A DNA stretch of 19,734 nucleotides, taken from assembly GCA_016215705.1 (NCBI GenBank), contig JACRIR010000249.1:1-19734 (forward strand), given 5' to 3'. A model generated the notes under the pieces. That model was given only the letters and a program-made list of their open reading frames with translations, searched no databases and was not told the origin of the DNA. The translations under genes and the position numbers were made by a program. This stretch comes from Candidatus Poribacteria bacterium. GTDB lineage: Bacteria; Abyssobacteria; SURF-5. Position 1 is the first letter of the stretch. Each line of letters begins with the position of its first letter. Below are positions 1-15,927 of the stretch, piece by piece.

Positions 1-1
1 G

Positions 2-454: not shown

Positions 455-515
455 TCGAAGAGAGGAGGGTCTTCTCTTTGTTCAGAATGGCATTGAGGGG
501 CTTTCAGGAAGCGTA

Positions 516-560
516 CGTTTATTCGGGGACACGATGCCGCATCGTGTCCCCGAATAAACG
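516..560. repeat. Palindromic repeat, GGGGACACGATGC family, copy 1
   Basis: This is a perfect hairpin: 22-bp arms (516-537 and 539-560) around a single C at 538. The core is GGGGACACGATGC/GCATCGTGTCCCC and the outer arm is CGTTTATTC. It lies in the 210-bp gap between the pseudopilin and the assembly ATPase, and no T-tract follows. Four other copies lie in the window. The remainder of the gap (455-515 and 561-664) holds no convincing gene. Confidence 0.95.
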
Positions 561-664
561 GAATGCGGCATGGCTTTCCCGAAATGCGGGACGGTTTTCG
601 CATAGTTCACAGTGCCGCGGACGCGGTTGGATGCTCAGGATGACGGCGAAGGAATCATAATAGG

Positions 665-2374
665 ATGCGAGTACAGAAACAGATAGGTCAACTCCTGCTG
701 GAAAGGCAGATACTTACCGAGAGCCAGCTTGCCCTCGCCCTTAATGAGCAGAAACGGACAGGCGAGAAACTGGGCAAAGTGCTGCAGAATCTCGGTTTCA
801 TCACTGAAGACTTGCTCTCGTCGGTGCTTGCCTTTCAGTCGGGCGTGGAGCAAGTTGACCTCGCAACCACTGTGCCGGACACTCACGCGCTGGAGGCCAT
901 ACCCAAGCAGGTAGTAAAGCGTGAGCTCGTCATTCCGCTCTCCATTAAGGGAAGAATCCTCACCCTCGCGATGGCAAACCCGTTCGACGTCCTCACGATC
1001 GACCGGCTCGAGAAGACCACCGGCCTCAAGATCAAGAGCGTGTGCGCGACCGAGACCGAGATAATCAAGGCAATCGATGCGTACTATGAGGGCGCCGCGA
1101 ATATCGAACGCATACTGGAGGAGTGCATCCGGGAGGCCGAGGACTTCGCCCACAATCTCCGGAAGAGAGACGATGAGAATTCGGCAATCATCCGGCTGGT
1201 GAACCATGTTTTCATAAAAGCCGTCACCGAAACCGCAACCGACATTCATATCGAGCCTGAAGAAAATGTCGTGAGGACTCGTTTCAGAATCGACGGCGTT
1301 TTGCAGCAAGGACCGGCGCTTCCAAAAGTGCTTCAGATGCCGCTCGTCACCCGAATAAAGATCATGTCGAACCTAAATATTGCGGAAAGCCGCCTCCCAC
1401 AAGATGGGAGATACTTGTTTCAGATAGGCAAGAAGAAGGTGGACTGCAGGATTTCCACCTTGCCGACCACGTATGGAGAGAACGTCGTCATAAGAGTCCT
1501 CGACAAATCCAGGATAACATTGAACCCGAGGGAACTCGGGCTGTCCGCAAATGACATGGGGTTACTGGAATCGGCTTTTGCGAGACCTTACGGAATGATT
1601 CTCGTCACCGGTCCGACGGGCTCCGGAAAGACGACAACTCTTTACGCCGCCCTCTCGAAAATGAATTCTCTCGAGAAAAACATCCTGACGCTCGAGGACC
1701 CCGTCGAGTACGATCTGCCCGTCATTCGTCAGACTCAGATAAACCGGCAGGCCGGCCTGACTTTTGCCGCCTGTCTGCGGTCCGTGCTCAGGCAAGACCC
1801 GGATGTGATCCTCGTCGGTGAAACGAGAGACCATGAAACCGCCGAGCTTTCGGTTAATGCCGCCCTTACAGGGCATCTGGTCTTCTCTACGCTCCACACA
1901 AACGACGCCTGCGGCGCCGTTCCAAGACTGATCGAAATGGGAATAAAACCCTATCTTCTCGCCTCGGCCTTGCACTGCGTAGTGGCCCAGCGCCTCGTTC
2001 GCAGAATATGTCCTTCGTGCAAGACCGTAGATGACAACCATCATGAGCAACTCGCGAAGCTAGGGCTTGATCCCCATCCGGGCGCTCAGTTCTTCAAGGG
2101 AAAGGGCTGTGAGAATTGCTACCACACAGGCTACAGGGGCCGGGCAGGGGTTTATGAGATTCTTGTAATCGATGACGAAGTCAGACGCCTGATTCTTACG
2201 CAGGCGGACAGCGGGACCATTGCTGATACGGCGAGAAAGAGCGGCATGCGGACGCTGTTGGAGGATGGGCTCTTGAAAGCTGAGGCCGGTCTTACGTCCC
2301 TGGCGGAAATCATCCGCGTGTGCCCTTCCAACGGACTCAGTTCTGCGAATGAGCTTGTTGCGGAGGCGGTATAG
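665..2374 (+). CDS. mshE: Pilus assembly ATPase (MshE/PilB/GspE family)
   Basis: This is a cytoplasmic hexameric secretion ATPase that would power pseudopilin assembly; its 569 residues are normal for MshE/PilB/GspE. The N-terminus carries two consecutive 24-residue segments (residues 6-29 and 35-58) separated by five residues. They fit the layout of the MshEN domain, known in the family as a cyclic-di-GMP sensor. The catalytic half shows an Asp box (ATDIHIEP, about residue 190), Walker A GPTGSGKT at 316-323, Walker B DPDVILVGE at 378-386 and a His box (HLVFSTLHTND, about 404). A zinc-binding tetracysteine follows: C449-x2-C452 and C482-x2-C485. The tetracysteine favours an assembly ATPase over a PilT-type retraction ATPase. 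The platform protein follows immediately. The mshE name rests on MshEN and on synteny with msh-like genes; pilB or gspE are alternatives. The ATG at 665 has a purine-rich AAGGA about 13 nt upstream. Confidence 0.92.
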   Translation: MRVQKQIGQLLLERQILTESQLALALNEQKRTGEKLGKVLQNLGFITEDLLSSVLAFQSGVEQVDLATTVPDTHALEAIPKQVVKRELVIPLSIKGRILTLAMANPFDVLTIDRLEKTTGLKIKSVCATETEIIKAIDAYYEGAANIERILEECIREAEDFAHNLRKRDDENSAIIRLVNHVFIKAVTETATDIHIEPEENVVRTRFRIDGVLQQGPALPKVLQMPLVTRIKIMSNLNIAESRLPQDGRYLFQIGKKKVDCRISTLPTTYGENVVIRVLDKSRITLNPRELGLSANDMGLLESAFARPYGMILVTGPTGSGKTTTLYAALSKMNSLEKNILTLEDPVEYDLPVIRQTQINRQAGLTFAACLRSVLRQDPDVILVGETRDHETAELSVNAALTGHLVFSTLHTNDACGAVPRLIEMGIKPYLLASALHCVVAQRLVRRICPSCKTVDDNHHEQLAKLGLDPHPGAQFFKGKGCENCYHTGYRGRAGVYEILVIDDEVRRLILTQADSGTIADTARKSGMRTLLEDGLLKAEAGLTSLAEIIRVCPSNGLSSANELVAEAV

Positions 2375-2376
2375 AC
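2341..2376 (+). repeat. Direct repeat, unit A: 3' end of the mshE-like gene
   Basis: The last bases of the mshE-like gene, including its TAG stop, match 2453-2488 at 32 of 36 positions with no gaps. The two copies bracket a 14-bp tandem array. Three of the four differences are G-to-A in the downstream copy. Confidence 0.9.
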
Positions 2377-2381
2377 GGGGG

Positions 2382-2451
2382 GTTTATGGTTCATAGTTTA
2401 TGGTTCATAGTTCGTGGTTCATAGTTCGTGGTCTATAGTTCATGGTTCGCG
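2382..2451 (+). repeat. Tandem array of five 14-bp units (heptad pairs)
   Basis: There are five consecutive 14-bp units starting at 2382, 2396, 2410, 2424 and 2438. The first two are identical (GTTTATGGTTCATA); the others vary at a few positions (GTTCGTGGTTCATA, GTTCGTGGTCTATA, GTTCATGGTTCGCG). Each unit is two related heptads of the form GTTYRTG/GTTCATA. A related heptad array lies at 17290-17324. Both arrays end in GTTYGCGATT. The array is non-coding and lies directly after the mshE-like stop codon. Confidence 0.9.
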
Positions 2452-2452
2452 A

Positions 2453-2488
2453 TTCTGAGAATAAGCTTGTTACGGAGGCAGTATAGAC
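2453..2488 (+). repeat. Direct repeat, unit B: degenerate copy of the mshE 3' end
   Basis: This is a second copy of the mshE-like 3' terminus, 112 bp downstream of the first and also retaining the in-register GTATAG. It has no open frame of its own leading into it, so it is a duplicated remnant and not a functional gene end. Confidence 0.88.
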
Positions 2489-2528
2489 ACAGACAGCGGT
2501 TCTTAATTGGCGACACCATGTGGCATGT

Positions 2529-2571
2529 GTTTATTCGGGGACACGATGCTGCATCGTGTCCCCGAATAAAC
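2529..2571. repeat. Palindromic repeat, GGGGACACGATGC family, copy 2
   Basis: Perfect hairpin with 21-bp arms (2529-2549, 2551-2571) and a single T loop at 2550. Its sequence is nearly that of copy 1. It ends 13 nt before the ATG of the platform gene, so the hairpin occupies or abuts the normal ribosome-binding position. A further degenerate half-hairpin (GGCGACACCATG ... CATGTGT, 2509-2530) lies directly upstream. Confidence 0.95.
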
Positions 2572-2584
2572 GAAAAAGATTATT

Positions 2585-3787
2585 ATGCCCAGATACACGT
2601 ACAAAGCGGTAAACGTTGACGGAACGAGCGTAGGCGGCACTATGGAGGCCGCAAACGCGGGCGAGCTTGCGCGCGCGCTCGACACACTCGGCGTCTACCT
2701 GATATCCGCTAAAGAGAAGAGGGCAAGCTCTGGTTTCTCGTTCAAGAGGCGAATATCCAGAAAAGAGTTGATCGCCTTCACAATCCATCTCGGCACGCTG
2801 CTCCATGCAGGAGTCCCCTTGTTGGCCGGTCTCGCCGAGCTTGAGAAGGAAGCGAACTCGAAGGCATTCAAGAACACGATAGCTGACGTTTGCAGAAAAA
2901 TCGAGACAGGAAGCTCTCTGGCGGACTCGCTCTCCATGCACCCCGAAGCGTTCTCCAGCCTCTATGTGAACATAGTGCGGGCCGGAGAGTCTACGGGAAA
3001 ACTCGACGAAACACTCAACGACTTGCTTCTGTTCCTGGAGTGGCAGGACCAGTTGGCCGGAGATACCAAGCAGGCCGTGATTTACCCTTCCATGGTTCTG
3101 GTCGCCGTAATCGGACTTATCGTCCTTCTGCTGGGCTTTGTATTCCCCAAGTTTATCACGATTTTTGACAGCTTTAACTACGCGCTGCCGCTGCCCACCA
3201 GAATCCTTATCTTCATGAGCAACGGCTTTGTAAAGAATTGGCCGTGGCTGCTTATGGGCGTCCTTGTCACGGGCGCTCTGTGCAAAGTCTTTAAGGACAC
3301 CGACTCTGTCAGAGAGTTCATCGACAGGGCAAAGCTCGGTTTCCCGATCCTTGGACCCCTGTTCCAGAAGCTCGCATTGTCGCGCTTCGCTCACCATCTG
3401 GGAGTTCTTTTCAAAGCCGGGGTCAGTCTTACGGAGGCTTTGGAGATAGTCGAGCGAGTGGTGAGCAACAGAGTCTTGAGCAGAGAAATAGCGCTGGCGG
3501 CCGAGAGGGTGCAGAACGGAGAGCCGCTCTCGAAGGCCCTTGAATTCAGTAAGAGGTTCCCCGGGCTTGTCATACGGATGATACGGGTGGGCGAGCAGAC
3601 GGGCGACCTGGACGAGACATTGAGCAAGGTGAATAAATACTATGACCGTGAAGTGCCCGCGACGGTGAAGAAGATCTTTACCGTATCCGAAGGGTTGCTC
3701 CTTGTGCTTTTAGGAGCTATCGTGCTTTTTGTCGGATTAGCGATCGTGCTGCCGCTTTACCAATTCCAGGGCTCGATCCTGCATTAG
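2585..3787 (+). CDS. Inner-membrane platform protein (MshG/PilC/GspF family)
   Basis: This protein is the polytopic inner-membrane platform that couples the assembly ATPase to the pseudopilins. Its 400 residues match the family length. The N-terminus MPRYTYKAV and the following A-x-x-x-L-x-x-x-G-x-x-L-I pattern are typical of GspF. Two T2SSF domains are visible: about residues 62-190 (including GVPLLAGL and AGESTGKLDETL) and about 265-395 (including GVSLTEAL and VGEQTGDLDETL). Membrane segments lie near 165-192, 218-236 and 367-394. The ATG at 2585 has no clear Shine-Dalgarno: a palindromic repeat ends 13 nt upstream and only A-rich sequence lies between. By position it would be mshG; pilC and gspF are equivalent names. 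Confidence 0.93.
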   Translation: MPRYTYKAVNVDGTSVGGTMEAANAGELARALDTLGVYLISAKEKRASSGFSFKRRISRKELIAFTIHLGTLLHAGVPLLAGLAELEKEANSKAFKNTIADVCRKIETGSSLADSLSMHPEAFSSLYVNIVRAGESTGKLDETLNDLLLFLEWQDQLAGDTKQAVIYPSMVLVAVIGLIVLLLGFVFPKFITIFDSFNYALPLPTRILIFMSNGFVKNWPWLLMGVLVTGALCKVFKDTDSVREFIDRAKLGFPILGPLFQKLALSRFAHHLGVLFKAGVSLTEALEIVERVVSNRVLSREIALAAERVQNGEPLSKALEFSKRFPGLVIRMIRVGEQTGDLDETLSKVNKYYDREVPATVKKIFTVSEGLLLVLLGAIVLFVGLAIVLPLYQFQGSILH

Positions 3788-3804
3788 AGGACACAATGCG
3801 ACAT
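3786..3804. repeat. Half-copy of the GGGGACAC palindrome
   Basis: The bases overlapping and following the platform gene's stop (AGAGGACACAATGCGACAT) resemble the left arm and loop of the GGGGACACGATGC hairpin family. The right arm is not preserved. I read it as a decayed copy. Confidence 0.5.
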
Positions 3805-3828
3805 AGCCGCAACCAAAACAACGAAGAG

Positions 3829-3907
3829 AATTCACCACAAAGACACAAAGTCACAAAGAAAAAGAAGAAGCATGCAACCACGGATTCACACGGATTAGCA
3901 CGGATTT
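3829..3907 (+). repeat. Short tandem repeat stretch (CACAAAG and CACGGATT units)
   Basis: The stretch has CACAAAG at roughly 8-9 bp intervals (CACAAAGACACAAAGTCACAAAG), then A/G-rich sequence, then CACGGATTCACACGGATTAGCACGGATT. This is non-coding-style repetitive DNA between the platform gene and the next pseudopilin. It happens to be open in the pseudopilin frame and would give a Lys-rich N-terminus if translated. Confidence 0.7.
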
Positions 3908-3939
3908 GGGAAAAGAATAGGAAATTGCGACAGGAATTC

Positions 3940-4752
3940 ATGATTTCGAACGTGAGTGGTATAGATGAAGCAACCGGATGCCGGGCGGACGGATTCTCTC
4001 TCATCGAGATGATCATTGCCATTGCGATCATGGCAATATTGTCGGCCGTCGTCGTTCCCGTGGTGTATAAAAGCATCGATGCCGAGAGGCATCAAGCCAC
4101 TTATAAAGAAATGGACGCAATAGTTGCCGCAATCGTGGGCAATGCCACCGAGGGAAACTATGGCTATCTGGGAGACATGGGCGGACTTCCGGCCAGTCTC
4201 ACCAACTTGAACACGAACCCTGGATCGACAACGCATTCATCGGGCACAAACGGCGTTCCAATGGGCTGGAACGGTCCTTACCTGAACATGGGAACGGACC
4301 CGACGGACTATCTGTCCGACGCATGGAGAATTCCGTATTCGTATAACAATGTCACAGGGAGAATTACCAGCCCGGGACTCAATGGAATCCTGGGCGACAG
4401 CGACGACATCGTGCTCCCGACCAACGCCGTGATCGCTTCCGGCTCGATTGCGGTAACAGTGACGACCAACAGTATTCAAAACCCCGGAAACATCGAGACG
4501 CTCGACGATACCACCGCAGATGTATGGGTCTCTTTCTCGAACAATGGGACTGAGAACGCGGTACAAGCAACCTACAATGCCTTGCTGTCATGTTTCACGG
4601 CGGGGCCTGTGCACAAAGGGTTGCACGCAATAACCGTGACAGGCGCCAACGGCCCGTCGCCGAGCCCCAATGATGATTTTCTTGGAAGGACCGGCGCGGC
4701 AAACCTGGTCGTGAGCCAGGGAGTCGCTTCAGTAACGGTGTACATTAACTAG
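3940..4752 (+). CDS. Type IV pilin-like pseudopilin with C-terminal extension
   Basis: This is a filament subunit processed by prepilin peptidase. From the ATG at 3940 the 270-residue product has an 18-residue leader ending in A-D-G. Cleavage at G18/F19 gives the mature start FSLIE with the conserved Glu at mature position 5 (E23). A hydrophobic helix of about 22 residues follows. The globular part contains GWNGPYLN, a D-A-W-R-x-P-Y motif and SPGLNG, as in the GspG family. About 90 extra residues follow, Thr/Val/Asn-rich and probably beta-structured, unlike standard GspG, which ends near the loop. I chose 3940 because AGGA lies at 3932-3935 and because the longer frame from 3796 would translate repetitive DNA and place the leader in an implausibly long basic segment. 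It probably belongs to the same pilus as the truncated pseudopilin at the left edge. Confidence 0.88.
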   Translation: MISNVSGIDEATGCRADGFSLIEMIIAIAIMAILSAVVVPVVYKSIDAERHQATYKEMDAIVAAIVGNATEGNYGYLGDMGGLPASLTNLNTNPGSTTHSSGTNGVPMGWNGPYLNMGTDPTDYLSDAWRIPYSYNNVTGRITSPGLNGILGDSDDIVLPTNAVIASGSIAVTVTTNSIQNPGNIETLDDTTADVWVSFSNNGTENAVQATYNALLSCFTAGPVHKGLHAITVTGANGPSPSPNDDFLGRTGAANLVVSQGVASVTVYIN

Positions 4753-4769
4753 GAGAGGCATATCTCGAC

Positions 4770-6404
4770 ATGAAGTCTCGAAAGATTCTGGCGCTGGAAA
4801 TGAGAGATTCCGAATTGCTCGCTTTGGAGGCGACTCGAACGCCCACCTCCATCAAAGTGACGAATTTCGGGAGGTTCAATCTTTCCGGGGCCGTCGCCGG
4901 CAATGACCTCGGCAACGCGCTCAAGACCCTGTTGCGCGCACATGGCTTTAGCGGCAAGAGCGTCGCGCTCGTATTGCCGAACGACCTTGTTGAGCATCGG
5001 CTGCTGGACCTGCCTCCTGTGGCGGGCGCAAAGCTCGCCGCTATAGCGCGTGGACAATCCCTTAAAGACACCCAGCTTTTGTCGGTCGGCGACGTTGATT
5101 GCCGGTTCATCGTGCGGGAAGAAGTGAAAGAGAAAGGCGACACGAGGAAGAGGGTATTCTCGACCAACTTTGCGCTCGGGGAGTTGCGGAAACGTTTACT
5201 GGTTGTTTCGGAAGCGGGCTTGGAACCTCTCTTCTCAACGTCTCCTGTAGCTGCCTTGTCAGAACTAGGTGTCGCATGTTCGCAGGGTCTGGCAGATTCC
5301 TGCCGAGCGATACTCTACATCAGGGAACATGAGCTCCATATCATAGTGTTCGATCATAAAGGATGGCTGTTCTCGCGCGAATTGGCTCTGATGCGCGGTT
5401 CCTTCGACGACACGCCGGTCATGTCTCATACCGAAGATGCAGCCGGTTCCGAGAATGATTTTTCGGACATCGACGACAAATCTCCGGCCGGGGCCGACAC
5501 AGACTCAATCGCGGATGTGGCAATAGAAGAGATAAATCGCTCTTTCCTGTTTTTCAAACAAAACAGCAGAAGAATGATTGATGAAATACTTCTCGTTTCT
5601 GAAGATGAGCAAACGAAGCAGATCAAACTCAGGATCGAAAAGGACCTCGGGATTTCCGTTCGCCTGCTGCAAGTGGCAGAGCTTGTCGACTTTTCTGACC
5701 TTTCGCATCGAGTGACTCAAGAGGCGTTCGCCGTAAATCTTTACCTGCCGCTGATTGCACTCGCTTCCGCCACTGATTCGGAGAAGTGTCCGAATCTGAT
5801 ACCGGAAGATTTTCTGGAACGGCGGACTATGGTGGCAACCAAGGGCATCTTTGCCGCTGTCGGCTTTGCGCTGCTTTGCGCCACAGTGGCCGGCTACGCC
5901 GCTCTTGCGTACAACGAGAGAGGACTAGAGCGTCTTCTGAGCAAGAAGCAAGAATCCCTTGCCGGCCGCCAATCGCGTTTCAAGGATATGGAAACTCTCA
6001 TGGCCAAACAGGCGCTCTATGAAAAGAAGGATTTGATACTGAAGCAGTCTCTTGTGGCTCAGCCTCCATGGGACCGAATATTGAAATGGATTGGTCAAAT
6101 CACACCCGCTGACCTCTCCCTTACTCAGCTTTCGATACAGAGGAAGAGCGACGGCTGCCGGCTGAGTGTATCAGGCGAAGCGCTTGCGGCAAACGCATAC
6201 GACGCTCAGGCGAGTTTTCGAGCGTTCTGCGATGCGTGGAACGGCTGCCCATTCTTCTCGGAATCGGTCCTTGAGCCGGTCAAACTCCAGATAGTCGAGG
6301 CTACCCCGGAAGCGGACAATTCCGCCAACGGAACCAGCGCCGCATCCGGAATGAGACATAAGGTTCTCTTCTCTATGACGGCCAAAGTCGGGGGGAATCG
6401 ATGA
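4770..6404 (+). CDS. PilM-PilN fusion / MshI-GspL-like alignment protein
   Basis: This 544-residue protein combines a PilM-like actin-fold cytoplasmic domain (about 1-330) with a PilN-like part. The PilN-like part has one membrane segment near residues 358-381 (GIFAAVGFALLCATVAGYAAL), then a coiled-coil-prone stretch and a periplasmic ferredoxin-like domain. In canonical type IV pili these are separate PilM and PilN; MshI and GspL keep related parts in one chain. The N-terminal nucleotide-binding loop (ILALEMRDSELLALE) lacks the Gly/Ser-rich signature of ATP-binding PilM, so ATP binding is doubtful. An acidic insertion (about 218-250, many Asp/Glu/Ser) interrupts the actin-like domain. AGGAGAGG at 4752-4759 precedes the start. 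The gene overlaps the next by ATGA, implying translational coupling. Confidence 0.82.
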   Translation: MKSRKILALEMRDSELLALEATRTPTSIKVTNFGRFNLSGAVAGNDLGNALKTLLRAHGFSGKSVALVLPNDLVEHRLLDLPPVAGAKLAAIARGQSLKDTQLLSVGDVDCRFIVREEVKEKGDTRKRVFSTNFALGELRKRLLVVSEAGLEPLFSTSPVAALSELGVACSQGLADSCRAILYIREHELHIIVFDHKGWLFSRELALMRGSFDDTPVMSHTEDAAGSENDFSDIDDKSPAGADTDSIADVAIEEINRSFLFFKQNSRRMIDEILLVSEDEQTKQIKLRIEKDLGISVRLLQVAELVDFSDLSHRVTQEAFAVNLYLPLIALASATDSEKCPNLIPEDFLERRTMVATKGIFAAVGFALLCATVAGYAALAYNERGLERLLSKKQESLAGRQSRFKDMETLMAKQALYEKKDLILKQSLVAQPPWDRILKWIGQITPADLSLTQLSIQRKSDGCRLSVSGEALAANAYDAQASFRAFCDAWNGCPFFSESVLEPVKLQIVEATPEADNSANGTSAASGMRHKVLFSMTAKVGGNR

Positions 6405-7072
6405 ACATCTTTGAAGGAATGAGTTTTCGCCTGAAGGCTGTCGTGGCGGTTTCAGCGATTGTTCTCGGCATCGTGCTTTTGTACCTTGCTCTGTTCAGGC
6501 CCAAAATAGCCCATACGATTCAGACAGAGGCGAAGCTCGAAAGCTTGCTTGCCGAGATGGACAAGCAGTTGCATCTGGAAGCGATCTTTGCCACGCCTGA
6601 TGCGTCGCAGCAACACCAATGGCCCGAGGTGGATGCAAAACTGAGCGAGAGGATTCCCGAAACGATGCAATTGCCGGCGGCTCTCGAGGAGATTGCCGCC
6701 CTGGCGAAGAGCCGGGGGATAAAGGACCTCACGATGACCACACTGCCCAAAGGCGGTGAAGGAGCAGCCCCGGAATCGAGAGTCGTTCAAATCGGAAACA
6801 AGAAGATTCCGGTGGCTTCAGAGGAAGAGAGTTCCGTAGAAGCGAACCCGATGGAGAATCTGGATATCGAGGAAGTCGTCATAAAGATGTCCTTTCACTC
6901 CGAATATGAAACGCTCGGGGAGTTCCTGGAAGGATTGTCCGCGCTTTCAAGATTCGTATTGATAGACGGAGTCGAAGTGGGCAGGGAATTGCCGAAGCCT
7001 TGTGTAACGTTGTCAGTGAGAGTCTTCTCGCTTCATGAATCGGAATCTTCCGTTCAGGCGAGCTCGACTTAA
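6401..7072 (+). CDS. PilO/MshJ-like inner-membrane alignment protein
   Basis: This is a bitopic inner-membrane protein of 223 residues: a short cytoplasmic N-terminus, one membrane segment (about 13-31, AVVAVSAIVLGIVLLYLAL), then a coiled-coil-prone region and a periplasmic alpha/beta domain. The size and layout fit PilO/GspM. The region around Q-L-P-A-A-L-E-E-I and F-x-x-L-G-E-F-L-E-G-L-S-A-L resembles the family's conserved helix and strand. It starts at the ATGA overlap with the PilM-N fusion gene and would pair with that protein's PilN domain. Assignment rests on layout and context more than on strong motifs. Confidence 0.75.
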   Translation: MNIFEGMSFRLKAVVAVSAIVLGIVLLYLALFRPKIAHTIQTEAKLESLLAEMDKQLHLEAIFATPDASQQHQWPEVDAKLSERIPETMQLPAALEEIAALAKSRGIKDLTMTTLPKGGEGAAPESRVVQIGNKKIPVASEEESSVEANPMENLDIEEVVIKMSFHSEYETLGEFLEGLSALSRFVLIDGVEVGRELPKPCVTLSVRVFSLHESESSVQASST

Positions 7073-7087
7073 GGAAACGGGCCGTAT

Positions 7088-7130
7088 CCTTTATTGGGGA
7101 CACCATGACGCATGGTGTCCTCAATAAAGG
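7088..7130. repeat. Palindromic repeat, variant GGGGACACCATG copy
   Basis: This hairpin has 20-bp arms (7088-7107, 7111-7130), one mismatch and a 3-nt loop. The core is GGGGACACCATG/CATGGTGTCCTC, so relative to the other copies an inner G-C pair has flipped to C-G on both arms. It sits between the PilO-like and PilP-like genes. An ATG at 7112 lies inside its right arm but is unlikely to be a true start. Confidence 0.92.
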
Positions 7131-7150
7131 GGCACAGGCGAATTCGACGC

Positions 7151-7165
7151 GAGGATGAAAAAGTG
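7151..7165 (+). promoter_or_regulatory. Shine-Dalgarno and GTG start of the PilP-like gene
   Basis: GAGG at 7151-7154 lies 8 nt before an in-frame GTG at 7163, giving V-E-R-W-F and then the membrane segment. This beats the ATG at 7112, which is inside a palindromic repeat and would add 17 residues encoded largely by repeat DNA. Confidence 0.7.
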
Positions 7166-7729: not shown

Positions 7730-7758
7730 AAACGCTCCAAGCAGAGAGGAATTGAACT

Positions 7759-9540
7759 ATGCACGAGAGAAATTTCCGCCACAATTTCTGTGAGGCCCTC
7801 TTTGACACATGCAAGGGCTCTCTCGGAAAATTCGGCGTCCTGTTGCTCTTTTCTTCGATGGCCTGTTCGAGTCTCGGATCGGAAAAACCCATCAATAAAG
7901 TCGACGTGATGCTTGGACCATTGTCTGAGCCTTCTCCGGTAACGCAGGAGCCGCAACTCGAGGAAAGGCCGCTATTCAAGCTGAGTGAACCGAAAGCAGA
8001 GACAGGGATAGCAGCGGCGGGCGCCGGCCGGAAATTCACTCTCACCGTGAGGGATGCCGACATAAGAGACGTCCTTATGGCCTTCTCCAAGGAGGGCGAT
8101 TACAATCTGATAATTGATCCGTCGATAACGGGCAGTGTCTCAGCCGATTTGAAGGAAGTGGACATTTCTCAGGCGCTCGACGCCATCCTCACTCCCCTCG
8201 GCTACTCATATGTCCGTGAAGGCGCTTTCCTTCGCATCACGCCACAGCCGCTTGAAACGCGCGCCTTTTCGTTCAACTATGTGACCACTTCACGGAAAAG
8301 CAAGAGGTCCCTTTCCTTCACCAGTATGTCGGTGGTCGGTCAATCGTCGGGTGTCAGCGTTTCGGGCGGGTCAGGTGGTTCTTCGTCCGGGGGAGGGGGA
8401 GGCGGAGCGGGTCAGAGCGAGAGCAGCATCAATGATATCGTTTCCGCCAGCATCTGGAGCGACGTGCAACTTTCCCTGGAAACCATCGTATTCGGAAATT
8501 CACAAGGATCAACCTCGACAAGCGATGAATTGAAAGCATTCAGCCGCGGCGATGAGATCGGCAGGCGCCTTATCGTCAACCCGCAAGGCGGAACGATCTA
8601 TGTATCGGCCTACCCGTGGGAAATGAAACAGGTCGAGTCGTTCCTGCGCGGACTGGAGGAATCGGTGAGGCGCCAGGTGCTAATCGAAGCACAAATACTT
8701 GAGATTCTCCTGTCTGACGACTTTGCCTACGGCCTGAATTGGAGCTATTCGCTGGAATTGTCGCACCTGAGCGACCTGAAAGGAAACCTGCTTGACTTCA
8801 CAGGCGCCTTCAATGATTCTGCATTCAATCAATTTCTGGCGCCCGATGAGGCCGATTTCCAGATCGGCCTTGCGAACGACCATTTCTCGGTTCTTCTTAA
8901 TACCTTGGCCAGGCAGGGCCAGGTGAACGTCCTCTCGAGTCCGAGGATTTCGACCATGAACAATCAACCGGCCGTCATCCGCGTCATCCGGGATGAAGTA
9001 TTCTTCCAGGCCGACGTGGCGCCGACGGTGATTGTGAACGGGGTGGTCACGGGCGGCGAGGTAGAGTTCAACCCCGTGATTCTGCCAATCGGGATCGTGC
9101 TCGAGGTCACTCCTCAAGTGGGCGACGACAACACCGTGTCATTGGACATTCACCCCTCGATCTCCTCGATTGTGCGCGTCGAGGCGTCGCCGCGCGGAGA
9201 TACGCAGCCCGTCGTTGACAGAAGAGAGATGGATACGGTGGTCAAGGTGCGCAACAGCGACACGCTCGTGCTCGCGGGACTCATTCAGGAGTCGCACCAG
9301 GAATCCAATAAGGAAGTTCCGCTGGCAGGCCGAATTCCGGTCCTGGGAAACCTGCTGTTTAAGGGGACGGACCACAACAACGCCAAGACGGAACTGGTGA
9401 TAATGCTCAGGCCCACTATCCTGGACGATTTCAAGATCACGCGGATATACAATGAGAGCATGGATAGGATAAGCCGCGCAAAGAAGGAGCCCGCAATGAA
9501 TCTCAATCCCTACGTGTACGGCAAGGGGGGAGAGGAGTAA
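7759..9540 (+). CDS. mshL: Outer-membrane secretin (MshL/PilQ/GspD family)
   Basis: This is the outer-membrane channel of the pilus or secretion apparatus. The 593 residues begin with a basic N-terminus and a hydrophobic stretch near 25-36 (FGVLLLFSSMAC). This may be a signal peptide; the Cys lacks a good lipobox. An STN-like domain (about 92-155, FTLTVRDADIRDVLMAFS) and an N-domain follow. A Ser/Gly-rich low-complexity loop of about 25 residues lies near 197-222. The C-terminal secretin domain includes VLIEAQILEI, QGQVNVLSSPRISTMNNQPA and the terminal VPLAGRIPVLGNLLF ... ELVIMLRPTI block. STN plus short secretin followed by an MshM-like ATPase and MshN-like TPR gene supports MshL over GspD. 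AGAGGA at 7744-7749 precedes the ATG. Confidence 0.92.
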   Translation: MHERNFRHNFCEALFDTCKGSLGKFGVLLLFSSMACSSLGSEKPINKVDVMLGPLSEPSPVTQEPQLEERPLFKLSEPKAETGIAAAGAGRKFTLTVRDADIRDVLMAFSKEGDYNLIIDPSITGSVSADLKEVDISQALDAILTPLGYSYVREGAFLRITPQPLETRAFSFNYVTTSRKSKRSLSFTSMSVVGQSSGVSVSGGSGGSSSGGGGGGAGQSESSINDIVSASIWSDVQLSLETIVFGNSQGSTSTSDELKAFSRGDEIGRRLIVNPQGGTIYVSAYPWEMKQVESFLRGLEESVRRQVLIEAQILEILLSDDFAYGLNWSYSLELSHLSDLKGNLLDFTGAFNDSAFNQFLAPDEADFQIGLANDHFSVLLNTLARQGQVNVLSSPRISTMNNQPAVIRVIRDEVFFQADVAPTVIVNGVVTGGEVEFNPVILPIGIVLEVTPQVGDDNTVSLDIHPSISSIVRVEASPRGDTQPVVDRREMDTVVKVRNSDTLVLAGLIQESHQESNKEVPLAGRIPVLGNLLFKGTDHNNAKTELVIMLRPTILDDFKITRIYNESMDRISRAKKEPAMNLNPYVYGKGGEE

Positions 9541-9545
9541 CTCTC

Positions 9546-10442
9546 ATGTACGAGGATTTCTTTGGATTGAAGGAGAATCCATTTCACGTGACGCCGGACC
9601 CCGAGTTCTTGTTCATGAGCCGGACGCATAAGGACGCCTTGAACCACCTGGTGTATGGACTGCAAATGCGCAAAGGGTTTATTGCGCTCATCGGTGAGGT
9701 CGGAACAGGAAAAACGACCCTGTATCGGTTCCTGCTGAGGGAACTGGGGCCGATGTATCCGACAGCGGTGGTCCTCAATCCTCTCCTTACAGGAAAACAA
9801 TTGCTGACATCCGTTCTCAGGGACTTCGGTGTTCCGGTCAAGACGCCGGCCTCGTCTCTGGAAACTTTGTGTGACAAGCTGAATCAATTTCTCAAGCGCA
9901 AGAATGAGGAGCAGAAAATCCCCGTCCTCGTGGTGGACGAAGCCCATGAGCTTTCTCCCTCCCTCCTCGAGTTGCTTCGTGTGCTCTCGAACTTTGAGAC
10001 GAATGAACAAAAGCTCTTGCAGATTCTGCTTGTCGGACAACCCGAATTGCTGCAAAAACTCGGCTCTCCGGGCCTCCGCCAGTTGAATCAGCGCATCAAC
10101 GTGCGCTATTTCCTCGAAAAACTCGAGAAGCTGGAAATTTCGCGATACATCGAACACCGCCTCGCGGTGGCGGGCGGCAAAGGCAATGTTCTGTTTACAC
10201 GGGGAGCGCTCCGGATGGTCTTCAAGTCTTCGCACGGGACTCCAAGGCTCGTAAATCAGATTTGTGACAGGGCGCTGTTGAGCGCATTCGTGAATGAAGC
10301 ATGGCTGGTGACAAGGAGGCAGGTGAAAGAGGCGACCCGAAGCCTTGTCGGCGGCTGTAAACTATCGCCTTTCTCTGTTCTCGGCTCATTCGATGGAACT
10401 ACGGGCGCAAGCAGCGCGATTCGTCGCATACGGTTCTCTTAG
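9546..10442 (+). CDS. mshM: ExeA/MshM-like AAA ATPase
   Basis: This is a 298-residue ATPase of the ExeA/GspA/MshM group, thought to assist secretin assembly or peptidoglycan remodelling. The start MYEDFFGLKENPFHVTPDP is the family's hallmark. Walker A GEVGTGKT lies at 50-57 and Walker B VLVVDEAHEL at 127-136. Sensor-like LLVGQPEL and GTPRLVNQICDRAL follow. It lacks the C-terminal peptidoglycan-binding domain of ExeA, matching MshM. The start lies 5 nt after the secretin stop, with GGGGAGAGGAG at the end of the secretin gene serving as ribosome-binding site, so the two are likely co-translated. The 117-bp gap that follows (10443-10559) contains nothing I can identify. Confidence 0.92.
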   Translation: MYEDFFGLKENPFHVTPDPEFLFMSRTHKDALNHLVYGLQMRKGFIALIGEVGTGKTTLYRFLLRELGPMYPTAVVLNPLLTGKQLLTSVLRDFGVPVKTPASSLETLCDKLNQFLKRKNEEQKIPVLVVDEAHELSPSLLELLRVLSNFETNEQKLLQILLVGQPELLQKLGSPGLRQLNQRINVRYFLEKLEKLEISRYIEHRLAVAGGKGNVLFTRGALRMVFKSSHGTPRLVNQICDRALLSAFVNEAWLVTRRQVKEATRSLVGGCKLSPFSVLGSFDGTTGASSAIRRIRFS

Positions 10443-10559
10443 TTGTTGCCCGGATTCCGAAACGCCGTGTGGGCGCGAATCTATTGGCGCGGTTTTTGCC
10501 CAAACGTGGCCGGAAGATCACTGCGCGAGGATTGGGAATCTTAAGCGGGAGCGATATAC

Positions 10560-11828
10560 ATGAGCTTGATTACTGACGCGCTGGAAAAACTGGACGACCG
10601 GGCGAAATCCGGAAAATTCGAGCCTGGGTCGGATGGCGGCGTCCAACCTGCCGCTTCCGTTTCTGTGAATCCGCCAAAGAGGAATCTCAAGGTTGTCTAT
10701 CTTGTGTCGGCCATTTTGCTGGCGCTTGTAGCCGCCTTCTGTTTGTGGAGATTGGTTTTCACGGTGGAGCGGCCTGCAAAAGCGATTGCCGGGCGCCGTG
10801 CCGGCGCAATGCAAGAACAGGTCGAAAACTCCGCCGGCGGCAGTGTGCGAACGAATTCGCCCCTGCAACAAGCTAATCCGGCGATGCCGGACAACATAAC
10901 GCCCCAGGGTGACAATGTCGAGACACCACAGTCTCAGGCGCTTTTGTCCGTTCCAGCCTCAGCCAGTGCGGGCGCTAATTCAGTTGCACTCACAGATCAA
11001 AAACAGTCCGCCGGTTCCACTCAAGGCGGAGGCTCTGCCGGCGCCAATTTATTCACACTCGATGGGCAAGAGCAGCACGCTCGGCCCTCGCCCCTCGCGA
11101 TTCGGCTTTCCTCAACCCTGGAAGCGAAACCCTCTGACGCGCCAAAGGAAGACCTTGCAGGGGCGCAGTCCCGCCACGGCGGGACGCCCTCGCATGACCG
11201 CGCAATACCTTCCACCAAGCTATCGGGTGAAGGCGAGAGCGCCGACTTTGAGAAACTCTATCGTCAGGCGCTTGACTGCCAGTACAACAAGGACTATTTC
11301 GGCGCTTTGAAATGGTACAAAGAATGCCTACGAACCAGTCCCGATGCTGCAAATGTGCATGCCAATATGGGGGTAATATTTGCTCGCATGCAGGATTCAG
11401 AGACGGCAATCGAACATCTTAGGAAAGCTTTAAGCATTGACCCCGAGAACGAGACGGCACACAATAATCTCGGCGTGGTTTTCCTTCAGAAGGGGGACTA
11501 TGAAAGCGCAATCAGCGAGTTCGAAACCTCTTTGACTCGAAATCCCGGAAATATTGAAGGCTATGTGAATTTGGGGATAGCCCGCAAGCGGCTAGGCCGC
11601 CAGCAGGCAGCGCTCGATGCTCTCGAGGCGGCGCTGAGGATCGATTCCGCGCATCCGGATGCAAACTTTAATTATGCCCTTCTGCTGGACAAGCAGGGGA
11701 AATATGCCAAGGCCCGGATTCACTACGAGCGGTTCCTTCAGCATGCCGCGCAGACTGATGCGAGAACCGTCGAGCAGGTTCAAGACCGCATTCGATACCT
11801 GGAAAAGAAACCAGAGATGCAGAGATAA
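10560..11828 (+). CDS. MshN-like membrane-anchored TPR protein
   Basis: This 422-residue protein has the MshN/GspB-type N-terminus MSLITDALEKLDDR, a membrane segment (about 44-66, KVVYLVSAILLALVAAFCLW), a long Ala/Ser/Gln/Gly-rich linker (about 70-225), then five TPR-like helix pairs to the end (about 228-415; for example VHANMGVIFARM, AHNNLGVVFLQKGDYESAI). Domain order and its place after secretin and MshM genes match MshN, which is implicated in secretin assembly. GGGAG about 10 nt upstream supports the ATG. The linker contains a duplicated 14-residue segment (136-149 and 159-172, 8 of 14 identical). It also contains an in-frame DNA palindrome at 11168-11185. Last gene of the pilus cluster; convergent with the next. 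Confidence 0.85.
   Translation: MSLITDALEKLDDRAKSGKFEPGSDGGVQPAASVSVNPPKRNLKVVYLVSAILLALVAAFCLWRLVFTVERPAKAIAGRRAGAMQEQVENSAGGSVRTNSPLQQANPAMPDNITPQGDNVETPQSQALLSVPASASAGANSVALTDQKQSAGSTQGGGSAGANLFTLDGQEQHARPSPLAIRLSSTLEAKPSDAPKEDLAGAQSRHGGTPSHDRAIPSTKLSGEGESADFEKLYRQALDCQYNKDYFGALKWYKECLRTSPDAANVHANMGVIFARMQDSETAIEHLRKALSIDPENETAHNNLGVVFLQKGDYESAISEFETSLTRNPGNIEGYVNLGIARKRLGRQQAALDALEAALRIDSAHPDANFNYALLLDKQGKYAKARIHYERFLQHAAQTDARTVEQVQDRIRYLEKKPEMQR
10965..11075 (+). repeat. Degenerate 69-bp-period duplication within the MshN-like linker
   Basis: Bases 10965-11006 and 11034-11075 encode SAGANSVALTDQKQ and SAGANLFTLDGQEQ, offset by 23 codons. The third-position differences and the protein-level similarity suggest an old in-frame duplication of linker sequence. 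Confidence 0.6.
11168..11185. repeat. Palindrome embedded in coding sequence
   Basis: GTCCCGCC-AC-GGCGGGAC is a perfect 8-bp-arm hairpin. Flanking AGGGGCG (left) and GCCCT (right) extend it with a bulge. It is read in frame as part of the linker (about Q-S-R-H-G-G-T). It looks like an inserted repeat tolerated in a disordered region. Confidence 0.7.
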
Positions 11829-11869
11829 GAACGGCGCCTGTTTTGCGACAGTGACAGAAAAGTGGGCTG

Positions 11870-11910
11870 GAAAATTGGGGACACGATGCCGCATCGTGTC
11901 CCCAATTTTC
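11870..11910. repeat. Palindromic repeat, GGGGACACGATGC family, copy between convergent genes
   Basis: Perfect hairpin with 20-bp arms (11870-11889, 11891-11910) and a single C loop. The outer arm here is GAAAATT, different from copies 1 and 2 but still self-complementary. With AATTTTC after the GC-rich stem on each strand, it could act as a bidirectional terminator between the convergent MshN-like gene and the aldehyde oxidoreductase gene. A partial second right arm (CGTGTCCCCCATTTTC, 11913-11928) follows and touches the oxidoreductase stop codon. Confidence 0.95.
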
Positions 11911-11927
11911 TGCGTGTCCCCCATTTT

Positions 11928-13634
11928 CTATATTCCGTCGTACAGCTTGTCCACTTCATCATACGGCACATCAAAGACGAGGTCATGCGGTTTGATCTTT
12001 ATTTCGGTCATGAACTCGGGCAGACGGTCGTGGGCTTTTGTGAATCCTGCGCGCTTGTTGAAGTCATGCTCGGTCCGCAGCACTCGCTTGCCAAGCTCAA
12101 TGAGGTCGGCTTCAGTATATGGCTTCCCGTTGAGGGCGGTCATCAGCCGTGTCATGAAATCGTTATAGCCGGCTGGTCCTCTCGATGAGAACATGCACAT
12201 GCCAAGTGAGTCAACGAATCCCATTTGTATCTGCATATTCCGGGATTTCTCGACTTTGCCTTCCGGATTGTGCACGGTCTGGTCGTACATGATGCCCGCG
12301 GTATGGTCGGCCCCCATCGGGCTTGTGCAGTAGGTGACGCCTACAATCTTGTTGCTCTGCGGATGATGCGCCGGAAGAGATTGTCCTTTCACCGCCGGCA
12401 CACGCTTCACGCCCAGAATCTTCCCCGTCACCGCCGCTCCGCTTCCTATCATTCTTCCCCGGATGGTTCCTTTCGCGACTTCTTTGATCAGTTCGATTGC
12501 GCTCTCGCTGTCGCCGAATTTGATGAGGCCCGATTCCATGACAACGCCGAGCGCGGCGCCGGTCTCGATTGTGTCGAGGCCGCAGTCGTTCAGGAGACGG
12601 TTCATAAGGGCGATTGCGTCCACGTCACTAATGAGCAGGTTCGAGCCGAGCATGGCAACCGTCTCGTATTCGACGCCGCCGACCAGGAATTTGTGGGATG
12701 CGTCATGATAGATTACCGAGCAGCGGATCGGGCAGCTCGGTGAACAACTGTGCATTTTCGCGCCGCGGCTCTTTGCAATCTCGACTATGGCCGCGCCCTG
12801 TATCTTCTCGGCGTGTTCATAGCAGCCGGCGCTGAAGTTCCTGGTTGGGAGCGTGCCGAATGCGTTGAAATTCGGGATGCCGCCGGGAGTGCCGCAGGTC
12901 CTAAGCTGTTCAATGAATCCTTTGCATTCGCGGAGCGCTTTCACGAAGTCACGCGCTGCTTTTGTGAACGCCTCTTTGTCCTTCGGCTGAACCGCATGCG
13001 CGCCGGTGTCATCGATGACGATGGCCTTGAGACCCTTCGAGCCCATGACCGCACCCATCCCGCCACGGCCTGCGTGGCGATTCGGCATGCCTTCCATGTC
13101 GCTCCCGGCCACCGTCGAACCGGCGAGCCGCATCTCTCCTGCCTGCCCGATTGACGTTATCGAAACTCTTTCGCCGTATTTCTTGTGAAGCCGCTCACAG
13201 ACCGTGTAATTGCCCTGGCCGGCGAGGTCCCTCGCCTCTTCGAGAAAGCATTTATCGTTTTCGATCTTGAGCACATGGAAATTGTCGGCATCCGGCCGGT
13301 CTTCGGGCACACCCTCGACAACGACGGCGGCGATGTCGAGGCGCGCCAGTTTCAGCGCGGCAGTCCCTCCCGAGTTGCTCTCCTTGATGCCGCCGGTGAG
13401 CGGGCTCTTCGCCCCGATCGAAAGGCGTTCGGAACATGGCGCGCCGGTACCGGCGAGCAGGCCGGGCGCTATCACAAGCTTGTTGTGGCGGCCGATGGGA
13501 TCGCATGTGGGCGGGACTTCCTTGTTGACGATAGTCGATGTTAAGGCGCGCCCGCCAAGTCCGGCATATTCCGATGGGACATCCTCGATATTCACTTTAA
13601 GATTCGCCATATCGACCCTGAGTAGCTTCTTCAT
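11928..13634 (-). CDS. Aldehyde:ferredoxin oxidoreductase family protein
   Basis: This 568-residue tungsten/molybdenum bis-pterin enzyme family member oxidises aldehydes to acids using ferredoxin, in the characterised members. The family landmarks are present: IAPGLLAGTGAPCSERLSIGAKSPLTGG, the pterin-binding region AGRGGMGAVMGSKGLKAI (188-205), and VEYET near 321. A Cys cluster at C297, C301 and C305 plus C480 in DSLGMC would be the [4Fe-4S] ligands. The spacing here is C-x3-C-x3-C, versus C-x2-C-x3-C in the archaeal prototype. The C-terminal R-x-x-x-x-x-N-x-R-A-G-F and DRLPEF motifs are also normal. AGGAG at 13641-13645 (minus strand) lies 6 nt before the ATG. The substrate is unknown. Upstream is a FAD oxidoreductase gene, separated by a 69-bp palindrome; the two could be functionally linked. 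No tungstate transporter or pterin gene is visible. Confidence 0.93.
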   Translation of the reverse strand: MKKLLRVDMANLKVNIEDVPSEYAGLGGRALTSTIVNKEVPPTCDPIGRHNKLVIAPGLLAGTGAPCSERLSIGAKSPLTGGIKESNSGGTAALKLARLDIAAVVVEGVPEDRPDADNFHVLKIENDKCFLEEARDLAGQGNYTVCERLHKKYGERVSITSIGQAGEMRLAGSTVAGSDMEGMPNRHAGRGGMGAVMGSKGLKAIVIDDTGAHAVQPKDKEAFTKAARDFVKALRECKGFIEQLRTCGTPGGIPNFNAFGTLPTRNFSAGCYEHAEKIQGAAIVEIAKSRGAKMHSCSPSCPIRCSVIYHDASHKFLVGGVEYETVAMLGSNLLISDVDAIALMNRLLNDCGLDTIETGAALGVVMESGLIKFGDSESAIELIKEVAKGTIRGRMIGSGAAVTGKILGVKRVPAVKGQSLPAHHPQSNKIVGVTYCTSPMGADHTAGIMYDQTVHNPEGKVEKSRNMQIQMGFVDSLGMCMFSSRGPAGYNDFMTRLMTALNGKPYTEADLIELGKRVLRTEHDFNKRAGFTKAHDRLPEFMTEIKIKPHDLVFDVPYDEVDKLYDGI

Positions 13635-13652
13635 CGTTTACTCCTGTGTGGC

Positions 13653-13721
13653 AGGGGTCAGGTCTAAACAGTCGACAATAGGGGTTAAACCCCTGTTGTC
13701 GAATGTGTAGACCTGACCCCT
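13653..13721. repeat. 69-bp palindrome, AGGGGTCAGGTCT family, copy 1
   Basis: This is a long inverted repeat centred on 13687. The outer arms AGGGGTCAGGTCT / AGACCTGACCCCT are perfect. The middle (AAACAGTCGACAATA versus TTGTCGAATGTGT) has mismatches. The centre is GGGGTT-A-AACCCC. It fills most of the 91-bp gap between the FAD oxidoreductase and the aldehyde oxidoreductase genes. Copy 2 at 15858-15926 has exactly the same length. Confidence 0.93.
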
Positions 13722-13725
13722 GGCT

Positions 13726-15027
13726 TTACTTAAGGAACTCGTGTATCATCGGCGCAGCCTTGATGGCTGAGTCGAACGCTATGTCGCCGCTGCAGCCGTC
13801 GCCCTTCGCGGTGTCACCAACAAAGAACAGGTTGCTTACATATGGCGACTGGATGCTGTGCCGGTCAATCCTCGATTGGCCGACCTTCAGGTGGACGCCG
13901 TCGAGAATCAGATAGGCGAGTGGACGCTCCCACTCGACGTGCTCGAAGAAAATCGGATACAGTTTCCGGATGAACCCGCGAAGCGACTCGAGAGCCTCCT
14001 TCAGTCCCGACCCCTTTCTTGCCTCGGCGTAAGGGATGACCATCAGCCACGTCGACAATTGCTTGCCCTTCGGCGCGAGCGATTTATCATAGTTTGACGG
14101 AAAGCTTCCGAGCACCACCGGATCGAGACATATAATGTTGCCCTCTAATTCGGTTATGGGCTCGCTCAACCCGAAATCGATGCTCACACCGGACGTAGGC
14201 TCAAGGTTCTCGGAATAGCTCACAAAATCCGGAGGGAAGTTCTCTTTGCCGATAGACCGGAACAGGTGCTGAACAGGCGGAGTGAAGACAACAGCGGATG
14301 CGGAATGCAGCTTGCCGCCGACAATCACCCCGCTTGCGCGCGCGCCGTCTGTCTCGATTCGCTCGACCCGGCAGCCGGTCCTCACCTCGCCGCCAGTCGT
14401 CTCGATAACCTTTCGCAGCTTGTCTATTATCTGCTTTATTCCGCCGGCCGCCTCCGCTATCGGTTCTTCGGCCATCTGTGCGTTCTTGACGAAGCTCATC
14501 ACTTCTCCGGCCGAGGCTGTCTCGATGTCTGCCGCTATTATTGTGAAACCGAGCAGCCGGAAAAAACGCTTCACGTGTTGGTCCTGCGTATGTTGTTCGA
14601 CGAACTCGAGAAGGGTCTTGCCGTACCAATCGGCCGGGTTCTCGCCCACCATCGCAAAGACGGTTTGCAGGAGGGCCTGCCTGCTCTCCGGCGGCACAAG
14701 CTCGGTCTCCATGAAGTCCTCGATCACATTGGGCCTCTTGATGAGCCTGCCGTCCTGGTAGACATAAGAGGTTCTGTCTTTCTTGTGGGCGAACTCAAGC
14801 GACTGGCCGACGGATTTCAGCACGCGCGCCGCCGGGCCGCTGTTCCCGAAACGGATTGCGTGCAAGCCAAGGTCAACGATGTAGCCTTCTTTCTCGATGC
14901 ATTTCGCCCGGCCGCCGAGGTCGGTATCCGACTCGAAGAGCGTCACCGGAATGCCTGCCTTTGCGAGTAACGCTCCTATCGAGAGTCCTCCGAAACCGCC
15001 ACCGATGATAGCGACATTCTTTTGCAT
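13726..15027 (-). CDS. FAD-dependent oxidoreductase (phytoene desaturase / amine oxidase-like)
   Basis: This is a 433-residue flavoprotein. The N-terminal Rossmann motif is AIIGGGFGGLSIGALLAKAG, followed by the acidic FESD end of strand 2 and GGRAKCIEKEGYIVDLGLHAI, typical of the phytoene desaturase / amine oxidase superfamily. The mid-protein segment with AAGGIKQIIDKL and GCRVERIE is the second FAD-contacting region. The C-terminal NLFFVGDTAKGDGCSGDIAFDSA closes the FAD site. There is no membrane segment. AAGGAG lies just upstream of the ATG (15027, minus strand). The substrate cannot be deduced: carotenoid and quinone-like redox roles are possible for this superfamily. Adjacency to an aldehyde oxidoreductase suggests, without proving, a shared pathway. 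Confidence 0.85.
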   Translation of the reverse strand: MQKNVAIIGGGFGGLSIGALLAKAGIPVTLFESDTDLGGRAKCIEKEGYIVDLGLHAIRFGNSGPAARVLKSVGQSLEFAHKKDRTSYVYQDGRLIKRPNVIEDFMETELVPPESRQALLQTVFAMVGENPADWYGKTLLEFVEQHTQDQHVKRFFRLLGFTIIAADIETASAGEVMSFVKNAQMAEEPIAEAAGGIKQIIDKLRKVIETTGGEVRTGCRVERIETDGARASGVIVGGKLHSASAVVFTPPVQHLFRSIGKENFPPDFVSYSENLEPTSGVSIDFGLSEPITELEGNIICLDPVVLGSFPSNYDKSLAPKGKQLSTWLMVIPYAEARKGSGLKEALESLRGFIRKLYPIFFEHVEWERPLAYLILDGVHLKVGQSRIDRHSIQSPYVSNLFFVGDTAKGDGCSGDIAFDSAIKAAPMIHEFLK

Positions 15028-15143
15028 GTTTCTCCTTGCTGTGATTGTAAGCGCCGACCGCGACGCAGAACGACCGACCCTGCTGATAGATTATAGAATG
15101 CCAGAGGCTTTGACTTCAAGCGTATGGGATCCCGTCGCTCGTT

Positions 15144-15190
15144 CCCATAATTCGGTGAAACGATGCGGCATCGTGTCCCCGAATTATGGG
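15144..15190. repeat. Palindromic repeat, GGGGACACGATGC family, copy with decayed left arm
   Basis: Arms are 15144-15166 and 15168-15190 with a single G loop. The outer arm is CCCATAATTC. The right arm keeps the consensus core GCATCGTGTCCCC; the left arm has two mismatches (GGTGAAACGATGC instead of GGGGACACGATGC). It lies between the phosphoesterase and FAD oxidoreductase genes. Confidence 0.92.
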
Positions 15191-15310
15191 CCGCATGATG
15201 CCCCCGAAGAAACGCAAGCTCCCCCCGGATCAGCGAATTATGCGGATTCTCCTCTTCTTGTGTCCCGTTGGGAGAAAATGGCCGTCGGGTTTCGAATGCT
15301 ACTGTCTCAG

Positions 15311-15348
15311 ACGGCTTTGGACTTTCGAGCTTTGACCTTCGGCTTTGG
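15311..15348. repeat. Short repeat with CTTT recurring about every 7 bp
   Basis: CTTT or CTTC recurs at 15315, 15322, 15330, 15337 and 15343 (GGCTTTGG, GACTTTCG, AGCTTTGA, ACCTTCG, GCTTTGG). This resembles the heptad arrays elsewhere in the window. It is too short to call a true array with certainty. Confidence 0.5.
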
Positions 15349-15359
15349 GAAGAGGGCAA

Positions 15360-15842: not shown

Positions 15843-15857
15843 TGTTATTCCTATGCA

Positions 15858-15926: not shown

Positions 15927-15927
15927 G

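Follow-up and report, generated by a model that had tools for sequence, protein, structure and literature searches.

In a stretch of 19,734 nucleotides from a metagenome-assembled genome (MAG) of Candidatus Poribacteria bacterium (assembly GCA_016215705.1, contig JACRIR010000249.1, positions 1 to 19,734; hereafter the window), five hairpins share a nearly constant core, while their outer arms differ from copy to copy and are nevertheless self-complementary. The question raised by this locus is how a dispersed palindrome stays symmetric while its sequence changes. A first-pass annotation of the window had offered two answers, selection on the hairpin itself or spread by copying from a single strand as proposed for repetitive extragenic palindromic (REP) elements moved by REP-associated tyrosine transposases (RAYTs). 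The analysis described here points to the second answer: the hairpins are probably non-autonomous palindromes that belong to the TIRYT (terminal-inverted-repeat tyrosine transposase) branch of REP elements and RAYTs, mobilised by a Y1 HUH transposase with pairing of the stem as a requirement. The family is of a known kind, namely a REP family of terminal inverted repeat (TIR) type, and its arm covariation is unusually clear; from the comparisons given below we infer what kind of transposase moves the present core and that mobilisation is the step at which pairing is tested.

The host MAG is a fragmented assembly of 5.47 Mb in 270 contigs with a completeness of 92%. The genome-wide search for the core was performed with the pattern GGGGACACSATGNNGCATSGTGTCCCC at up to 3 mismatches and resulted in 417 forward and 418 reverse matches, with 0 matches for the reversed pattern as control; due to the fact that the pattern is nearly palindromic, forward and reverse matches correspond to approximately 420 sites. 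For the analysis of the individual units 221 copies were extracted from 1.99 Mb of the genome (reversed-sequence control: 0 at up to 5 mismatches), a sample in which the copy density is biased upwards because its early stretches were picked at known matches. The repeat is intergenic and of high copy number, since 26 of 183 copies overlapped with crude gene calls as compared to 79% of random positions. Within one mismatch the core was present in none of 385 other genomes, two relatives of the same family included, and the search of phages and plasmids for the core gave nothing meaningful. The two relatives contain a few different GGGGACA palindromes, e.g. GGGGACAGAGCCC...GGGCTCTGTCCCC; the end motif is therefore spread more widely, and the core is restricted to one genome in this sample. 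One viral contig (IMGVR_UViG_3300046652_000019, L284:4652-4678) carries the exact 27-nt core once, with the complementary arms absent.

Across the 221 copies the unit has a length of approximately 43 nt and consists of an 8-nt arm, a 27-nt core of the form GGGGACAC[G/C][A/T]TG-NNN-CA[A/T][G/C]GTGTCCCC and a second 8-nt arm, the stem forming one helix of 20 bp. In nearly every copy the core starts with GGGGACAC. Hardly any variation is seen at core pairs 1-7, 11 and 12; two alternatives occur at pair 9 (G-C or C-G) and two at pair 10 (A-T or T-A). The flip of an inner G-C pair to C-G, first described for the hairpin at 7088-7130, was confirmed, and at the same pair it is found again across the genome (123 GC and 78 CG in 220 copies). 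Pairing of the arms is strong through arm position p8, exceeds expectation weakly at p9-p10 and falls to the expected level at p11 and further out; p3, p5 and p6 are nearly all A-T or T-A in either orientation, and p7-p8 are free. Arm variants and core variants combine in many ways.

The arms and the core differ in how they accumulate changes. Perfect 7-bp arms, in 41 different sequences, were present in 130 of 169 well-preserved copies. The covariation of the arms was assessed with 107 distinct 8+8 arm pairs from the 183 copies with at most 2 core mismatches: Watson-Crick pairing amounted to 86%, compared with 50% after shuffling of the partners (1000 shuffles, maximum 57%) and 30-43% when the arms were slid against each other, and arms varying without complementarity were not seen. 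Departures from the arm-class or core consensus were counted as double (paired) or single (one-sided) changes. There were 43 doubles and 65 singles at p2-p6 and 39 doubles and 14 singles at p1, in contrast to 3 doubles and 75 singles at the nine invariant core pairs (p2-p6 versus core, Fisher p 3e-9); as the copies are related by descent, these counts are non-independent and describe a contrast between arms and core, not event rates.

On-site selection or template-switch repair would cover the whole stem including the core, and since the core is uncompensated, arm complementarity appears to be mostly set at copying or mobilisation. The core counts likewise indicate that the hairpins are not re-paired one by one in place, and selection on each hairpin as the main cause is accordingly disfavoured. 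It is very improbable that every hairpin is kept paired where it stands, whether through selection on some RNA or DNA function or through repair of imperfect palindromes by template switching, because broken stems are not re-paired and many copies have decayed; on the other side stand the composite copies at L126:11474 and L153:8597, which have paired arm changes inside an otherwise shared flank, and the non-significantly lower number of unpaired positions in copies between convergent genes (0.74 vs 1.62, p 0.14). The covariation seems more likely to arise during mobilisation than site by site in the genome, and two models remain: either mobilisation is limited to copies that form the stem, or one half is copied to restore the symmetry.

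A link to tyrosine transposases is provided by the ends of the core, as GGGGACAC fits the published TIRYT end motifs GGGGWSAS and GGGG[AT][CG]A[CG]. Y1 genes with GGGGWSAS inverted ends were named TIRYTs in a survey (Di Nocera 2013, PMC3733652), in which the TIR copies are dispersed and sometimes self-complementary, and the motif GGGG[AT][CG]A[CG] has been given for TIRYT ends elsewhere (PMC6006769; subclass 2.1). Three Y1 (IS200-like) genes were found in the MAG, and this genome holds a Y1 HUH transposase with TTATTCCGGGGACATAATACC ends of the GGGGWSAS type. Two of the genes are near-identical and located on contig C28, with 26-bp ends TTATTCCGGGGACATAATACCTATTT; both ends of the second copy are complete, and the first copy is cut by the start of the contig, which begins inside the gene. 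Their protein reached 56 bits with the NCBI REP-associated tyrosine transposase model, below the cut-off of 80 bits. The third gene, on contig C225, passes this cut-off, encodes a DnaA-type helix-turn-helix domain and has GGGGTCAGGTCTTGAA ends. With regard to the motif, the transposase ends read GGGGACAT for C28 and GGGGTCAG for C225, the last base of GGGGACAT deviating from GGGGWSAS. A homologue in genome G068 (L271) has the ends ATAATTTGGGGACACGTACC. In the distant genome G089 a Y1 gene is directly flanked by whole AT-arm GGGGACWGTCCCC hairpins of the GGGGAC type, which are also dispersed in that genome, some with different yet paired arms (e.g. TAATAAAA/TTTTATTA and CAGGAAAA/TTTTCCTG). The earlier assignment to REP elements and their transposases therefore stands with regard to kind, given the TIRYT motif and the related transposases with similar ends, but the repeats are TIR-type and not GTAG REPs. 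The C28 transposase was considered as direct master of the hairpins and rejected; its ends differ and only half-sites of the C28 type occur elsewhere, so that it is kept merely as a relative.

In the proposed mechanism a Y1 HUH transposase would recognise the single-stranded hairpin; GGGGACAC would be read by its sequence, and in the arms an AT-rich paired stem would be what mainly counts. A one-sided break of an arm would lead to poor mobility and a two-sided change to mobility as before, so that lineages with different self-complementary arms would accumulate; after insertion, copies would decay through unpaired single changes. For group 3 TnpAREP enzymes it has been reported that a stem mismatch abolishes most cleavage, while stem swaps are tolerated (PMC8266576), and compensatory stem changes have been described in P. 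fluorescens REPINs (PMC3116915).

The second model, fold-back copying, would involve the same transposase, but one half-hairpin would template the other half, and an arm change would become double in one step. We regard it as unlikely. It would account for the finding that many arm sequences occurring only once are still perfectly paired (28 of 41), for the excess of doubles over singles at p1 (39 vs 14) and for the half-units and tandem half-units that are common beside hairpins. However, deletion or slippage during replication can produce half-units as well, loops that are asymmetric, such as TCG, have persisted, and Y1 transposases are not known to use fold-back synthesis. Restoration of symmetry after excision of an asymmetric intermediate has been discussed for REPINs (PMC3116915).

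The genomic contexts of the copies bear on a further explanation, namely that the 27-nt core inserts into an AT-rich target, or copies it inverted, so that the arms reflect the insertion site. The surroundings differ between arm classes. Approximately 22 copies of the GAAAATC class are located in the spacer of a GTAG REPIN (GGGCGCAATGAATTGCGCCCCTAC...GTAGGGGCGCGATTCATCGCGCCC), of which empty representatives also exist; apart from this subfamily with its shared flanks, a single expansion with identical flanks was not seen. The search for empty sites gave usable pairs only in REPIN contexts, apparently from one founder, and no target-site duplication was seen among them. In this comparison the empty spacer is AAGAAATC and the left arm of the filled copy is AAGAAAATC, with a net gain of approximately 31 nt and not 43. 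This case agrees with arms taken from the target, as do the armless core in the viral contig and the many combinations of arm and core variants. Nonetheless, arms derived from the target are quite improbable, as GAAAATC, CTTATTC and TTAATTC recur at many unrelated sites, and shared variants such as GAATGAAG suggest that the REPIN-spacer copies go back to one founder event.

Several additional observations were made on the surroundings. The GTAG REPIN family occurs at L105, L228, L220 and many other loci. Copies of the TTAATTC and GCTTATTC types often have the degenerate flank AAACAGTCGCCGGTTTCTTAGGAG in common. Another, conserved flank, CGCCGGTTTCTTAGGAG, gave 18 matches in the sample (reversed control 4); it was considered as a separate element and set aside. 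The matches are mostly located beside hairpins or in one tandem array. Tandem arrays of half-hairpins with a period of 29-34 nt that end in a full hairpin are present at L132:18129-18271, L138:5040-5182 and L200:6605-6731. In nested hairpins, TCCCGCC-NNN-GGCGGGA replaces part of the core and the outer arms stay complementary (L117:2291, L192:3715, L207:4309, L218:8658 and L224:5715).

In one arm class, A4/T4, an A-tract precedes and a T-tract follows the GC stem on both strands. Of these copies 21 of 53 were located between convergent genes, compared with 13 of 112 copies with other arms (Fisher p 7e-5) and 107 of 832 intergenic gaps of at least 50 bp in the sample (Fisher p 3e-6), and after exclusion of copies in REPIN context the ratio was 16 of 41 for A4/T4 versus 9 of 91; genes were called crudely, the data had been seen before the classes were compared, and the bias is a lead, not a result. 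It is new here. Secondarily, we infer from their position and composition that A4/T4 copies may be kept between convergent genes as two-way intrinsic terminators. In contrast, the TTATT and TAATT classes, in which the T-tract is absent, were not enriched at convergent sites (9/91 vs 108/834), and the identification of the family in general as intrinsic terminators was therefore rejected. That the hairpins are plain terminators, which arose or were duplicated in that role and never were mobile, is extremely unlikely: although the convergent bias of the A4/T4 copies would fit and compensatory evolution of terminators is known (PMC5381666), the fixed 27-nt core in hundreds of copies and its absence from 385 other genomes require a copying mechanism, and the hairpin at 11870-11910 was not listed as terminator-like by the terminator scan of the window. 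A combined account, in which free but paired arms diversified, one class was recruited genome-wide as bidirectional terminators and symmetry was restored by fold-back copying, is improbable.

Several points weigh against mobilisation of stem-forming copies by a Y1 transposase as the source of the symmetry, in addition to the shared descent behind the counts and the limits of the convergent-gene comparison. A Y1 gene flanked by exactly this core, as the first-pass annotation had suggested to look for, was not found in the fragmented, 92% complete MAG, and no recent insertion was caught. The C28 ends are related to the present core but differ from it by an additional C and in their inner sequence. 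Furthermore, longer flanks are in part shared among copies of the AAAAT, TAATT and TTATT classes, so that in these cases a larger composite may be what moves.

Compared with known systems, the family resembles the TIR repeats of TIRYTs (TIRtrons) in its GGGGWSAS ends, in sharing its genome with a Y1 HUH transposase whose ends are of this type and in the dispersal as single, dimeric and clustered units, and one published family is self-complementary (S. maltophilia ORF 1152); it differs in the full 43-nt hairpin, the approximately 420 copies and the interchangeable paired arms, and its own transposase was not found. With GTAG REPs and REPINs (RAYT, groups 2 and 3) it has in common that high-copy intergenic palindromes are linked to Y1 transposases and, in P. 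fluorescens REPINs, that compensatory stem changes are reported (PMC3116915). However, the hairpin foot is without a GTAG/GGAG tetranucleotide, no GTAG is present in the flanks beyond p8, and one 20-bp helix takes the place of the two short REPs around a spacer in REPINs; a separate GTAG REPIN family coexists in the genome. The GC-rich stem of the A4/T4 class, with an A-tract before and a T-tract after it on both strands, is like a bidirectional intrinsic terminator, but this applies to one arm class of a dispersed repeat with fixed core, and termination is predicted here. Miniature inverted-repeat transposable elements are similarly short, non-autonomous, bounded by inverted repeats and derived from a transposon with similar ends; the differences are that no target-site duplication was seen in the one founder event with empty sites and that the transposase is presumably a Y1 HUH and not a DDE enzyme.

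In the window itself all five hairpins are present as first described, with the outer arms fully paired in every copy. Folded as single-stranded DNA they have energies of -17.5 to -25.1 kcal/mol and z-scores of -7.2 to -12.4 relative to dinucleotide shuffles, and the 13-mer core at up to 3 mismatches gave 24 matches compared with 6.7 expected (200 shuffles, largest 13). The shared paired core holds for the family, but not for each copy: copy 5 has two uncompensated core mismatches (GGTGAAAC vs GTGTCCCC), and copy 3, which overlaps with the called start of the open reading frame 7112-7729, has one G-T wobble and an altered loop-closing pair. Copy 4 is enclosed by the convergent genes 10560-11828 (+) and 11928-13634 (-).

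Hairpins and half-units of the repeat family in the window
Feature	Position	Strand	Sequence	Context
Hairpin copy 1	516..560		arms CGTTTATTC/GAATAAACG; core GGGGACACGATGC-C-GCATCGTGTCCCC	intergenic, flanking genes co-directional
Decayed left half-unit	2502..2527	+	CTTAATT GGCGACACCATG TGGCATG	directly precedes copy 2; overlooked in the first pass
Hairpin copy 2	2529..2571		arms GTTTATTC/GAATAAAC	intergenic, flanking genes co-directional
Hairpin copy 3	7088..7130		arms CCTTTATT/AATAAAGG; core variant CCATG/CATGG (paired flip)	
Hairpin copy 4	11870..11910		arms GAAAATT/AATTTTC	A4/T4 class, bidirectional-terminator-like
Orphan right half-unit	11911..11926 (ends approximate)	-	TGCGTGTCCCCCATTTTC-like	adjoins copy 4; overlooked in the first pass
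Hairpin copy 5	15144..15190		arms CCCATAATTC/GAATTATGGG	flanking genes co-directional
Decayed half-unit	15193..15205 (ends approximate)	-	GCATGATGCCCCC	adjoins copy 5; overlooked in the first pass

The genes of the window include pilus or type II secretion-type genes, an aldehyde ferredoxin oxidoreductase, an FAD oxidoreductase, a glycyl-tRNA synthetase and an ABC transporter; in agreement with the first-pass annotation no transposase was recognised among them, and comparison with Rfam gave no match. The hits of the glycyl-tRNA synthetase were scattered across Zixibacteria, Calditrichaeota, Gemmatimonadetes and other groups with identities of at most 72%, and did not single out one phylum. A second hairpin family (AGGGGTCAGGTCTA...) is present in two copies with 93% identity at 13653-13722 and 15858-15927, and its outer motif is that of the inverted ends of the C225 Y1 transposase gene (GGGGTCAGGTCTTGAA). 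An inverted repeat with 84% complementarity (AAATTGCGACAGGAATTCATGATTTCGAACGTGAGTGG...) is located at 3922-3964 and 17844-17886; at one end of L147 the sequence also adjoins a GTAG REPIN, and it may belong to a larger repeat linked to REPINs. Two places, 2374-2447 and 17289-17334, have 14-nt repeats in tandem (GGTTCATAGTTTAT type), which at the first place directly adjoin a hairpin half-unit. Positions 1-573 overlap in reversed orientation with the start of contig C33 (L124:1-573) at 95% identity with the hairpin in both, which suggests that the MAG mixes strains or contains a duplication.

The finding bears on how REP-like palindromes stay symmetric while their sequence drifts. The family represents a natural experiment, in which a sequence-constrained core decays uncompensated beside arms that vary mostly in matched pairs, and this contrast between core and arms would assign the pairing requirement to mobilisation and not to the individual sites in the genome. 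If A4/T4 copies are truly biased towards convergent genes, selfish palindromes would supply this genome with transcription terminators.

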